Positions 51,733 to 55,040 of a DNA stretch of 64,000 nucleotides are shown piece after piece. How positions within the stretch are numbered: the stretch's first letter is position 1; each line of letters starts with the position of its first letter. Position numbers and translations under genes: made by a program. The notes under the pieces are model-generated. The model had not been told where the DNA came from, made no database searches, and saw only the letters and a list, made by a program, of their open reading frames with translations. The stretch is from an uncultured Clostridia bacterium (GTDB lineage: Bacteria > Bacillota > Clostridia > Oscillospirales > Ruminococcaceae), in NCBI GenBank assembly GCA_947588805.1, contig CANPYR010000001.1, forward strand, positions 62,001 through 126,000, read 5' to 3'.

Positions 51733-52599
51733 TCAGATTTCGCGCCATATCGCCGTGGAGCCCGCGGGAAGGCTCATGCCTTTTTCCTCTACGGGCAGCC
51801 CTATCTCGTCGGCGCTGACTTCGCCCCCGTATTTCGGCTTTATAAGCGCCCCGAGCATATAGCTCATCACCGAGGGAGAAAGTCCTGCGGTGTAGCTGTT
51901 AAGCATGAAGAAGAGCGGGCTGTCGCTTAAAAGCTTTACGCAGATCTCTAAGAGCGAATAAATGCTGTCCTCAAGCTTCCAGACCTCTCCCGAGGGTCCC
52001 CTTCCGTAGGACGGCGGATCCATTATTATAGCGTCGTAGGTCCTTCCGCGCCTTATCTCGCGTTCCGCAAACTTTAAGCAGTCGTCTACTATCCATCTTA
52101 TCGGCTTATCCGAAAGTCCCGAAGCCGCAGCGTTATCTTTAGCCCACTGAACCATTCCCTTTGAAGCGTCCACATGGCACGCCGAAGCGCCCGCTTCCGC
52201 GCATGCAAGAGTCGCGCCGCCGGTGTATGCGAAAAGATTAAGAACGCTTATATTTCTTCCCGCGCCCTTTATCATCTTTCTTGCAAGATCCCAGTTTACC
52301 GCCTGCTCGGGAAAAAGCCCGGTGTGCTTGAATCCCGTCGGACGGATGATGAATTTAAGCCGGTCGTATTCTACGGTCCAGCTCTCGGGGAGCTTTTTTC
52401 TGAATTCCCAGCTTCCCCCGCCCCGCTCGGAGCGGTGATACACCGCGTCGCAGCTCTCCCAAAGCGGATTTTCCTTCGGCGTTTTCCATATGATCTGCGG
52501 ATCCGGTCTTGAAAGCGAGATATCCCCCCACTTTTCAAGCCGCATCCCGTCCGACGCGTCTATTAAACGGTAGTCGCGCCACTTATCAGCCGTTCTCAT
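51733..52599 (-). CDS. Class I SAM-dependent methyltransferase (RlmI/RlmK-like, COG1092 type)
   Basis: 288 residues from ATG 52599 (GGGG six bases upstream). Motif I VLNLFAYTGGATLACAEAG, motif II HVDASKGMVQWAKDN and motif IV MDPPSYGRGPSGEVW match the Methyltrans_SAM family that modifies 23S rRNA. The PUA domain found in full RlmI is missing. It overlaps the GlmM-like gene by 14 bp. The target base is not known. Confidence 0.85.
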   Translation of the reverse strand: MRTADKWRDYRLIDASDGMRLEKWGDISLSRPDPQIIWKTPKENPLWESCDAVYHRSERGGGSWEFRKKLPESWTVEYDRLKFIIRPTGFKHTGLFPEQAVNWDLARKMIKGAGRNISVLNLFAYTGGATLACAEAGASACHVDASKGMVQWAKDNAAASGLSDKPIRWIVDDCLKFAEREIRRGRTYDAIIMDPPSYGRGPSGEVWKLEDSIYSLLEICVKLLSDSPLFFMLNSYTAGLSPSVMSYMLGALIKPKYGGEVSADEIGLPVEEKGMSLPAGSTAIWREI

Positions 52600-53965
52600 C
52601 CGTTTCCCCCGTTCCAACATAGTCGGCGGCAGTCTTAGCGATTGCCTGCGCGTACTGCCATACAAGCTCCTTGTCTCTTCCCTCTGCGATTATCCTGAGT
52701 ATCGGCGATGTTGATGATTCCCTCACGAGAACCCTTCCGTCGCCTTCAAGCTTTTGCTGGCAGTAAGATATCATTTCCTTGAGCGCCGGAACGTCCTGCC
52801 ACCTCGTTCTGTATTCCGGACGGAGAGGGATATTGAGAGTGAATCTCGGATAAGGCTCGTAGAGCGCGCTGAGCTCGCTCATTCTCTTTTTGGATTTTGA
52901 AAGCACCTCCAAGATCCTTGCCGCCGTCAGCATGCCGTCCGCGGTCTTTTTCTTTCCGAATACGGTATGCCCCGAAGCGGATCCCCCTAAATTATAGTCC
53001 CCGGTCTCCATTCTTTCTATTATATATCTGAGTCCTACCTCCGGAGCCTGCGATACCACTATCCCGTTCTCCTTAGCCCATCTGAAAAATCCGAGGTTCA
53101 CGGTCTGGGATACTACGCAGGTGTTCGCGGCGAGCTTCTGTTCCCGCTTCATGTAGTCCGCAAGTATCGCCGTTATTATATCCCCGCTTATGGGATTCCC
53201 CTTTTCGTCCACCATAAGGCATCTCCCGCCGTCTCCGTCGAGCGCGACTCCCGCATGCGCGCGGTTTTCAATTACCGCTTTTGACAAGGACGAAAGATCG
53301 GTCGTTCCGCAGGAAAGATTTATATTCTTCCCATCGGGAGCGTTATTTATAAGGGTTATCCCCGCTCCTATCCCCCGGAAGAATTTCTCCGCTGCGGTAT
53401 ATGCCGCGCCGTTCGCGCAGTCTATGACCACTCTCATCCTTGCAAGATCAGCTTCCGTCTCCTTTAAAAGTCCTCTTACATAATCCCACTCGGCGTTTTT
53501 TTCATGCGTTATCGTTCCTATGTTATCCCCGCCCGAGCAGAGCGTTTCCGCTTTATCAGAAAAGGTCAGCCGCTCTACTTCGGAAAGGATCTCTCCCCGA
53601 AGCTCTCCCCCGTCGGGGCCGAAAAATACTATGCCGTTGAATTCAAAGGAATTATGAGCCGCGGTTATCATCACGCCCGCGTCGGCTCCGTATCTTTTAG
53701 TGAGCTCTGAAACTCCCGCAGTCGGCAATACTCCGAGTATATGCGCGTCGGCTCCCGCCGAACAGCAGCCCGCCGAAAACGCCGCGCAGAAAATATCGCT
53801 TGATATTCTCGTATCCCTTCCGATAAGTATCTTCGGCTTTCTTGCAAGACGGTTTGAAAGTATAAGCGCAAGCGCCCGGCCCGCTCTTAATATCATCTCG
53901 CAGGAAATTTCGGTTATCGCCCTTCCGCTCACGCCGTCGGGGGTAAAAGCTTTCTTGGTTGACAT
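52586..53965 (-). CDS. GlmM-family phosphohexomutase homologue with degenerate active site
   Basis: 459 residues from ATG 53965 (GGAGG upstream; TTG 53983 lies in that site). The four-domain mutase layout is intact and FTPDGVSGRAITEI matches the GlmM start, yet each catalytic loop is altered. The phosphoserine loop reads ITAAHNS with Ala103 in place of Ser; the metal loop reads DGDGGR (third Asp is Gly247); the sugar loop reads GGSASGH instead of GGEQSGH; the phosphate loop reads RESSTSP instead of RPSGTEP. It may be inactive or changed in function. Genomic copies of true glmM cannot be judged here. Confidence 0.88.
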   Translation of the reverse strand: MSTKKAFTPDGVSGRAITEISCEMILRAGRALALILSNRLARKPKILIGRDTRISSDIFCAAFSAGCCSAGADAHILGVLPTAGVSELTKRYGADAGVMITAAHNSFEFNGIVFFGPDGGELRGEILSEVERLTFSDKAETLCSGGDNIGTITHEKNAEWDYVRGLLKETEADLARMRVVIDCANGAAYTAAEKFFRGIGAGITLINNAPDGKNINLSCGTTDLSSLSKAVIENRAHAGVALDGDGGRCLMVDEKGNPISGDIITAILADYMKREQKLAANTCVVSQTVNLGFFRWAKENGIVVSQAPEVGLRYIIERMETGDYNLGGSASGHTVFGKKKTADGMLTAARILEVLSKSKKRMSELSALYEPYPRFTLNIPLRPEYRTRWQDVPALKEMISYCQQKLEGDGRVLVRESSTSPILRIIAEGRDKELVWQYAQAIAKTAADYVGTGETDENG

Positions 53966-53984: not shown

Positions 53985-55040
53985 TTAATATAAAGTCGTC
54001 TGCTCCGAAGCTTCGCCGCCCGGCTTTTTTATGCCGAGGTGCTTATACGCAAGCTCGGTGGCGCATCTTCCTCTCGGAGTTCTTGCCAAAAATCCGAGCT
54101 GCATAAGAAACGGCTCGCATACGTCCTCCAAAGTAACCGCTTCCTCTCCTATCGCCGAGGCGAGCGTTTCAAGCCCTACCGGACCGCCGTTATAACCGTT
54201 TATTATCATCGAAAGCATTCTCTTATCAAGAGAATCGAGACCGAGATTGTCTACCTCCATGCGGTCGAGCGCTATTTTCGCTATGTCCTTTGTAATCCTT
54301 CCGTCGCTCATCACGTCCGCATAGTCCCTGACTCTTTTGAGAAATCTGTTCGCGATACGCGGAGTGCCCCTGCTTCGCGAAGCCATCTCGTAAGCGGCTT
54401 CCCGGTCTATCGCTACGCCTAAGATAACTGCGGAACGGGTTATTATCTCCGCAAGATCCTCAGTCGAATAAAGCTCGAGTCTCTGGATTATTCCGAAACG
54501 GTCGCGAAGCGGCGCGGAGAGCTGCCCGGAACGGGTGGTCGCGCCTATTAAAGTGAATCTTTGAAGATCTATCCTTATTGATCTTGCGGCCGGGCCGTTT
54601 CCTATCATAAAGTCTATCGCGAAATCCTCAAGCGCGGGATAGAGTATCTCCTCTATGGCGCGGCTCAGGCGGTGTATCTCGTCTATAAAAAGCACGTCTC
54701 CTTGCTGAAGGCTCGTTAAAAGCGCCGCAAGATCCCCGGTTTTTTCTATCGCGGGGCCGGACGTCACCCTTATATTTACTCCCATCTCGTGGGCGATTAT
54801 ATTTGAAAGGGTGGTCTTTCCGAGCCCGGGAGGACCGTAAAGCAGAACATGATCGAGCGGTTCTCCGCGCTTCTTCGCCGCTTCTATGTACACCGACATA
54901 TTTTCCTTTACCTTGTCCTGACCGATATATTCGCTCAGAGTCTTAGGTCTTAAGGAATAATCCGTATCAGAATCGTCGTCCTTTATAACCTGCGGCGCGA
55001 CAAGTCTGTTTTCAAAATCAAATTCGCCCGTTTCAATCAT
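53985..55040 (-). CDS. ruvB: Holliday junction branch-migration ATPase RuvB
   Basis: 351 residues. [18 protein letters not shown], Walker [16 protein letters not shown], Walker B FIDEIHRL, sensor [18 protein letters not shown] and the C-terminal winged helix with FLARTPRGR are all typical. The hexamer drives branch migration together with RuvA. It follows ruvA after 31 bp and ends 19 bp before the GlmM-like start. Confidence 0.97.

Follow-up and report, generated by a model that had tools for sequence, protein, structure and literature searches.

GlmM, the phosphoglucosamine mutase, is an essential enzyme for peptidoglycan precursors. Here, we describe a GlmM-family gene, glmM1, whose product (GlmM1) has altered catalytic loops. 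The gene lies in a 64,000-nucleotide stretch of DNA from an uncultured Clostridia bacterium of the family Ruminococcaceae (assembly GCA_947588805.1, contig CANPYR010000001.1, positions 62,001 to 126,000), referred to in the following as the window.

A non-catalytic role of GlmM has been reported in Bacillus subtilis (7OLH and 7OJS) and Staphylococcus aureus, where it inhibits the cyclase CdaA through helices in domain 2 (PMC8573169, PMC6368335). PGM5 (aciculin), a vertebrate phosphoglucomutase paralogue, is reported to be inactive and to have a structural, protein-binding role (PMC5570346), and the phosphoglucomutase PgcA of B. subtilis is reported to have GlmM activity as a secondary function (PMC6797236). 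A search of titles and abstracts, with most subscription journals outside its reach, found no inactive bacterial GlmM or GlmM pseudoenzyme.

GlmM1 resembles the described GlmM proteins (TIGR01455; 7OJR, 3PDK and 6GYZ) in having the four-domain alpha-D-phosphohexomutase fold, aligned over its full length, and is 37–38% identical to the GlmM structures of B. anthracis and B. subtilis. It groups with the intact, ruvB-linked GlmM of its family and has the same gene neighbors. It differs from them in that its catalytic loops are all altered, it scores below the equivalog cut-off, and the genome encodes a second, canonical GlmM. The domain-2 helices by which the CdaA-inhibiting GlmM acts correspond to the most conserved part of GlmM1 among its closest relatives. 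There, however, a single protein both inhibits CdaA and catalyzes the mutase reaction, and the contact residues described for the two partners are absent here. PGM5 shares the fold and is likewise described as non-enzymatic, but belongs to the vertebrate PGM1 branch, whereas GlmM1 is a resident bacterial copy beside another GlmM. PgcA, unlike GlmM1, is an active enzyme. Pseudoenzymes are already known as a kind; a dismantled GlmM under strong purifying selection is unusual.

Altered Catalytic Loops and Purifying Selection

The gene and its active-site motifs are as follows:

52586..53965, minus strand: coding sequence of GlmM1, the probable pseudoenzyme (459 residues; Pfam PGM_PMM domains I–IV all above cut-off)
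53924..53944, minus strand: N-terminal loop TPDGVSG, canonically GTDGxRG (mean predicted local distance difference test score, pLDDT, of 45 for residues 1–10 and 11–20)
53648..53665, minus strand: phosphoserine loop TAAHNS, with Ala103 at the catalytic Ser (codon GCT at 53659–53657)
53222..53239, minus strand: metal loop DGDGGR, the third Asp being Gly247 (from the translation)
53021..53038, minus strand: VGLRYI in place of VGDRYV (motif comparison)
52967..52987, minus strand: sugar loop GGSASGH, canonically GGEQSGH (motif comparison)
52703..52723, minus strand: phosphate loop RESSTSP, canonically RxSGTEP (motif comparison)

An earlier note on this DNA had reported the changes in the phosphoserine, metal, sugar and phosphate loops, including Ala103 (GCT) and Gly247, within an intact frame of 459 codons. 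Translation of 52586–53965 on the minus strand reproduced all four loops and the open frame, and added TPDGVSG and VGLRYI as two further changed motifs. The protein has the four-domain phosphohexomutase fold of GlmM, according to both Pfam (I–IV) and an AlphaFold2 model, and none of its signature motifs (SASHN phosphoserine, three-Asp DGDxDR, GGEQSGH and RxSGTEP). It scored 394.7 bits against the NCBIfam GlmM equivalog model TIGR01455, under the cut-off of 447.55, which was passed by the second GlmM of the host (GlmM2; 532.2 bits) and by two intact relatives of GlmM1 (556.1 and 561.7 bits).

The altered loops recur throughout a clade of 14 genomes including the host (the window clade), in which the other 13 proteins are 61–73% identical to the window protein. 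A metagenome-assembled genome of an uncultured Clostridia bacterium (L126) contains the DNA of one of these loci (G020) and was counted once, among the 13. The alignment of close homologues proposed in the earlier note thus found the changes clade-wide, with all 14 members altered. In B. subtilis GlmM numbering, used for conserved residues from here on, R11, D244, D308, E325, G413 and E415 are lost in 14/14 members; Arg11 and the sugar-loop Glu are Ser in every one of them, and Ser is newly fixed at positions 11, 325 and 415. The third metal Asp is missing from all 14 and from all 11 members of a second clade in the genus (clade B). The phosphoserine position varies within the window clade (Ser in nine, Ala in three, Thr and Glu in one each), while D240, D242, R245, H329, R410 and S412 are kept in 14/14; H329 is replaced in all 11 members of clade B. 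An error of sequencing or assembly, which the earlier note had coupled to close homologues with normal loops, was rejected because the 13 other clade genomes carry altered loops.

Selection was estimated as the ratio of nonsynonymous to synonymous rates (dN/dS) by the NG86 method, rough above a dS of about 1, on pairs picked by hand from the window clade and clade B for the altered copies. Altered GlmM1 gave 0.059–0.120 in 13 pairs, and the same pairs gave 0.036–0.069 for GlmM2, 0.011–0.064 for RuvB and 0.035–0.134 for the neighboring methyltransferase. Of three pairs of intact GlmM1, one gave 0.036 and the other two were saturated. Pooled over nine altered pairs, dN/dS was 0.076 (0.084, 0.066, 0.079 and 0.065 for domains 1 to 4, and 0.078 for the loops). 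When neutral drift of glmM1 was simulated to 0.2 substitutions per site, none of 300 frames stayed open. Altered GlmM1 is thus under strong purifying selection in two clades of the genus. The statement in the earlier note that this is not a decayed gene agrees with the open frames and low dN/dS in both clades, and a decayed pseudogene was rejected for them on the values above, individual and pooled. Lost catalytic residues together with purifying selection define a functional pseudoenzyme, the loss of activity being predicted from sequence. Within the genus, the data indicate that the amino-acid sequence of GlmM1 is selected for something and that, for most members, this is not standard mutase catalysis. 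Altered copies in other genera (G049, G100, G119, G125, G135 and G137) are also open, over 450–490 residues.

A Second, Canonical GlmM in Genomes with Altered GlmM1

The earlier note had raised the possibility that this was the only glmM of the host and proposed a genome-wide search for one with intact loops. The search found GlmM2 (G000:C20:23797-25143; host assembly of 2.0 Mb in 53 contigs, 86% complete), which has GTDGFRG, SASHNP, DGDADR, GGEQSGH and RESGTEP and, as it also passes the equivalog cut-off, refutes that possibility. Host GlmM2 is 34% identical to the window protein, and GlmM1 and GlmM2 are overall 33–37% identical. The gene adjoins glmS in all 26 genomes of the genus that have it. 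A transposase-like open reading frame (ORF), so labeled from our own reading of the sequence, lies directly upstream of host glmM2 (L078 4589-5785).

The scoring of GlmM1 at 15 catalytic positions covered 31 genomes of the genus and 119 genomes sampled from the family, of which two belong to the genus. In the genus, 26 genomes have altered GlmM1 with GlmM2, four have intact GlmM1 without it, and one (G028, 76% complete) has altered GlmM1 without it; that is, 26/26 carriers of GlmM2 are altered and four of five non-carriers intact. In the family sample, absence of GlmM2 was judged by a search with the window protein at E ≤ 1e-30 (GlmM2 of carriers scoring 1e-68 or better), to which a TIGR01455 search was added for 28 genomes. 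Where GlmM2 was absent, 91 genomes had intact GlmM1, one (G137) was altered and 14 had no scorable GlmM1, so that 91 of the 92 readable copies were intact, four of them (G056, G075, G085 and G112) on the basis of partial sequences. Of the 13 carriers of GlmM2, seven had altered GlmM1, six had none, and none had an intact copy. Among the 14 without a scorable copy, GlmM1 is split over three ORFs in G078 (L168, 75% complete), through either genuine pseudogenization or faulty assembly, and only an 85-residue piece is present in G039. A test on independent pairs of the RuvB tree, which lumps altered, broken and absent GlmM1, supported the association with GlmM2 by an average of 6.1 to 0 in nine pairs (median p 0.03).

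Altered GlmM1 occurs in seven of the 118 genera sampled, i.e., six besides that of the window. The number of positions lost out of 15 is two in G001 (D308 and H329), six in G004 and twelve in G119; it is five to seven in the 14 genomes of the window clade and seven or eight in the 11 of clade B. The GlmM tree groups the altered copies of the genus together with a modest support of 86, whereas the RuvB tree places G005, which has an intact copy, with the window clade (support 95). Both trees are quick searches, that of RuvB with many weak forks and that of GlmM with a warning of long-branch attraction for G119 and G137.

GlmM2-like genes are present in 35 of 197 genomes sampled at the level of the order, including the host (E ≤ 1e-150), and the closest one beyond the family has 77% identity. 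All 37 GlmM2 sequences fall into a single clade, with a Shimodaira–Hasegawa-like approximate likelihood ratio test (SH-aLRT) support of 100. In the GlmM tree, GlmM2 of three genomes from other genera (G049, G100 and G083) nests among the GlmM2 of the window genus, which makes it likely that GlmM2 moved between lineages.

The alteration of GlmM1 where GlmM2 is present, together with purifying selection, points to a pseudoenzyme that serves a selected function following takeover by another GlmM; that GlmM1 is such a pseudoenzyme is very probable on the sequence evidence.

Distribution of Constraint and Predicted Structure

Three conserved regions were located in GlmM1:

53462..53503, minus strand: domain-2 helix region 1, EKNAEWDYVRGLLK, the counterpart of the first of the two helices by which B. 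subtilis GlmM contacts CdaA
53363..53392, minus strand: domain-2 helix region 2, AEKFFRGIGA, equivalent to the second CdaA-contact helix
52631..52660, minus strand: C-terminal helix of domain 4, WQYAQAIAKT, conserved in the window clade

In 13 genomes of the window clade, diversity in domains 2 and 4 was 0.79 times that in domains 1 and 3; the ratio was 1.59 when their GlmM2 was taken instead, and 1.29 for eight near intact GlmM1 (permutation p 0.0005 for each comparison; the permutations ignore relatedness). Domain 1 is the most diverged domain of the window clade (1.14 times the mean), and its catalytic loops are at 0.83 times the mean, compared to 0.21 times in near intact GlmM1. The two most conserved 10-residue windows of the clade are residues 189–198 and 152–161, one of them within helix region 1. 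They match the domain-2 helices with D194/D195 and E154, near D151, which are reported to touch CdaA in the B. subtilis complex (PMC8573169). AEKFFRGIGA is invariant within the window clade, and the WQYAQAIAKT region varies less there than in GlmM2 or near intact GlmM1. The sequence of helix 1 is already present in intact GlmM1 of the genus, and the two windows are moderately conserved in near intact GlmM1 (0.22 and 0.14). Only 0.59% of window pairs are as conserved as the contact helices in the window clade, a partly post hoc figure, as the intervals are the contact residues widened by five and were set after seeing the conservation ranking; near intact GlmM1 give 30%, and the full set of 85 intact GlmM1 gives 86%. 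Of 88 positions that are at least 97% invariant in these 85 proteins, the window clade (14/14) keeps 47 and clade B (11/11) keeps 61. Many of the positions lost are in catalytic loops, and those kept include D240, D242, R410, S412 and many glycines. This distribution indicates that constraint in the window clade has shifted from the catalytic loops to the two domain-2 helices and domain 4.

The AlphaFold2 model of GlmM1, built from a 38-row alignment, had a pLDDT of 87.6. Residues 1–5 and 9–18 were under 50, and the block containing the phosphoserine loop (101–110) was at 60. The five best matches in the PDB were all GlmM, including GlmM chains from the CdaA complex (template modeling scores 0.85–0.92, query-normalized). 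In this model of the altered protein alone, the GlmM fold is retained and the active-site loops appear loosened.

The ruvB–Methyltransferase Locus

Two genes flank glmM1:

53985..55040, minus strand: ruvB, the upstream neighbor, which flanks glmM1 in 31/31 genomes of the genus
51733..52599, minus strand: a gene resembling S-adenosylmethionine-dependent RNA methyltransferases, scoring below all NCBIfam cut-offs

The earlier note had placed glmM1 in a conserved unit with ruvABC and the ECF genes. As for ruvB, the claim holds: ruvB and the methyltransferase gene flank glmM1 in all 31 genomes of the genus and at most examined loci of the family. ECF genes near glmM1 were seen in the window itself. 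Family loci with the ruvB–methyltransferase order usually hold an intact GlmM1 between, and because this order is common across the family, GlmM1 is the resident copy. The likely ATG of the methyltransferase gene (52599–52597) lies inside the end of glmM1, giving an overlap of 14 bases (52586–52599) that suggests translational coupling.

Of 23 RuvB loci in the family that were examined or sought, 21 were found, and in 12 of these the methyltransferase gene is downstream without GlmM1 between, close behind ruvB in 11 and about 1.1 kb behind it in G060. Four genomes with the methyltransferase gene close behind ruvB are G089, G101, G109 and G108 (L176, L179, L182 and L183). A search with the GlmM model found no GlmM in G089, G101 and G108 beyond distant, longer mutase-like genes, and no match in G109. 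PgcA shows that a different phosphohexomutase is able to take part in the GlmM step, and a PgcA-like enzyme may explain the family genomes in which no GlmM was found, as well as G137, where it could supply glucosamine-1-phosphate.

Proposed Function and Alternative Explanations

We propose that glmM1 encodes the ruvB-linked GlmM resident in this lineage, now turned pseudoenzyme. Relatives without a second GlmM keep the canonical loops, the exceptions being G137, a clear one, and G028, an incomplete genome; GlmM2, which adjoins glmS in the genus, is present where GlmM1 lost its catalytic residues. GlmM2 would now make glucosamine-1-phosphate in place of GlmM1, and GlmM1 would be kept for an additional, non-enzymatic task not carried out by GlmM2, presumably the binding of a partner protein via domain 2, domain 4 or both. 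We somewhat favor a function by protein binding or regulation. The earlier note had suggested a pseudo-enzyme with a regulatory role; the clade-wide changes, conserved frame and low dN/dS bear out the first half, and for the second half a non-catalytic regulator is our best guess. In B. subtilis and S. aureus, one GlmM protein both makes the peptidoglycan precursor and inhibits cyclic di-AMP synthesis, so that these roles are difficult to study apart. Nature appears here to have split catalysis off from whatever else GlmM does; intact copies in sister species and altered ones, as candidate cases, in six other genera provide a ready set of proteins for asking about the non-catalytic function. 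The case also calls for caution in annotation, as name transfer could label glmM1 as glmM, the essential enzyme.

A number of observations weigh against this proposal. The altered copy of G100 scores 470 bits on TIGR01455, above the cut-off, which by itself therefore cannot split altered from intact proteins; with the mere two losses of G001, this suggests that some altered copies may retain mutase activity. G137 (L146) has altered loops and no GlmM2 was found in its genome, which is 99% complete. Outside the family, two of 34 genomes with GlmM2 (G283 and G286) keep a fully canonical GlmM1-type gene, so both copies can be intact in one genome. The 12 family genomes without GlmM1 between ruvB and the methyltransferase gene show that retention is not obligatory. 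As for the shift in constraint, clade B goes in the same direction at p 0.12 and has a weak helix signal, with 22% of window pairs as low; the two conserved windows are conserved in GlmM2 as well (0.03 and 0.05; 10% of window pairs as low). Separately, weak second matches were seen in G224 and G278 among the GlmM2 genomes outside the family.

One alternative is that GlmM1 is a sensor whose altered pocket binds a hexosamine phosphate and reports flux to a partner without catalysis. The residues kept throughout the window clade (D240, D242, R245, H329, R410 and S412), the newly fixed Ser residues and the constraint on the altered loops in recent pairs (dN/dS 0.078) would fit, but Arg11, Asp308 and the sugar-loop Glu are gone in 14/14, H329 is replaced throughout clade B, the N-terminal loop has low predicted confidence, and loop diversity in the window clade is close to average (0.83 times the mean, against 0.21 in near intact GlmM1); we consider the sensor unlikely. 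Much of the same evidence (D240, D242, R410, S412 and H329, and constrained loops) would also be compatible with an enzyme of another chemistry, as the earlier note had suggested. This has no positive support and is improbable: within a single clade any of Ser, Ala, Thr and Glu can occupy the phosphoserine position, and none of the 14 members keeps the third metal Asp, so the phosphoryl-transfer mechanism of the family cannot be common to the whole clade.

GlmM is reported to form dimers (PMC8573169), and GlmM1 could serve GlmM2 as an accessory subunit, forming a heterodimer in which the dead protein tunes the active one. Altered GlmM1 almost always co-occurs with GlmM2, as this would predict; however, B. 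subtilis GlmM is reported to dimerize via domain 1 (PMC8573169), which in the window clade has diverged more than any other domain, the two proteins share only 33–37% identity, and six GlmM2 genomes lack GlmM1, making such a subunit hardly more credible than a new chemistry. The position of the likely methyltransferase ATG inside glmM1 raises the further possibility of a decaying relic, its frame kept open only by translational coupling to the overlapping gene. Compared across one set of 13 genomes, GlmM1 does evolve faster than GlmM2 (mean distance 0.333 versus 0.138), the copies of G119 and G137 are extremely diverged, and that of G078 is in three ORFs. Coupling puts no constraint on amino acids, yet dN/dS is low in all 13 pairs and when pooled, and in 10 other family genomes the methyltransferase gene starts within about 20 bases of the end of the ruvB ORF, or overlaps it, with no GlmM1. 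The low dN/dS disfavors a relic for the two genus clades, and we regard it as the least probable of these explanations, possible for G119, G137 and G078.

CdaA as a Candidate Partner

If GlmM1 is a pseudoenzyme that binds a partner, CdaA is the leading candidate, although only a tentative one. Each of the 31 genomes of the genus has a single diadenylate cyclase gene, of the CdaA type. In the host it is followed by an ORF that we read from its sequence as CdaR-like; the order cdaA–cdaR–glmM is not found, as host cdaA is elsewhere on the contig with no glmM adjoining.

The available data on contacts tell mostly against a CdaA interaction of the known kind. In B. subtilis, the CdaA substitution R126A is reported to abolish GlmM binding and inhibition, and R126 is reported to be conserved among homologues (PMC8573169). 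We aligned 58 of the 60 CdaA sequences found (loci L034–L063 and L248–L275, with G027 and G058 left out); position 126 was never Arg (Thr in 41, Ser in 11, Gln in four, Asp and Pro in one each), and the following residue was Arg or Lys in 28/58. The lack of Arg126 in all 58 implies that contacts between CdaA and GlmM differ here or are absent. In addition, the docking segment of CdaA in window-clade genomes shows more variation than the remainder of the aligned domain (0.27 versus 0.17). On the other side, GlmM1, whether intact or altered, lacks acidic residues at 151, 154 and 195 (His, Asn and Gly in the window protein). GlmM2 has Asp151 and an acidic residue at 194 in 37/37, and, keeping part of the acidic contacts, could be the CdaA partner instead. 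Since Ala variants of GlmM contact residues are reported to have barely changed binding to CdaA (PMC8573169), the missing acidic residues alone do not exclude CdaA. CdaA is also present in all six GlmM2 genomes without GlmM1, so a role of GlmM1 with CdaA cannot be universal.

The presence of CdaA was tried as a discriminator and was uninformative: 29 of 30 family genomes have it regardless of the state of GlmM1, the miss being G078 (75% complete). Regulation of CdaA by the contact chemistry of B. subtilis was not supported, with R126 and the acidic contacts absent and the docking segment variable. A broader scenario, in which the arrival of a second GlmM repeatedly freed the resident one, within one bacterial family, to become a dedicated non-enzymatic regulator, for example of cyclic di-AMP (c-di-AMP) synthesis through a re-wired CdaA contact, is conceivable and speculative; if true, a moonlighting essential enzyme would have had its two functions separated in nature.

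glmS and Other Phosphohexomutases

The four genomes of the genus with intact GlmM1 carry a different GlmS clade, making it plausible that an older glmS was displaced by glmM2–glmS in the genus. The occurrence of both GlmS types in the wider family weighs against a firm reading of this kind, and the GlmS tree is a quick search with many weak forks. One genome (G025) has a second glmS, split into two ORFs (L311, G025:C3), of the glmM2-linked type; that it is a relic of the displaced glmS was rejected on that grouping. A further phosphohexomutase in the host, on G000:C19 (L003 1390-2958), has the unusual loops TASHLP, DTDVDR and ETSGHG and is 30% identical to the window protein over the match.

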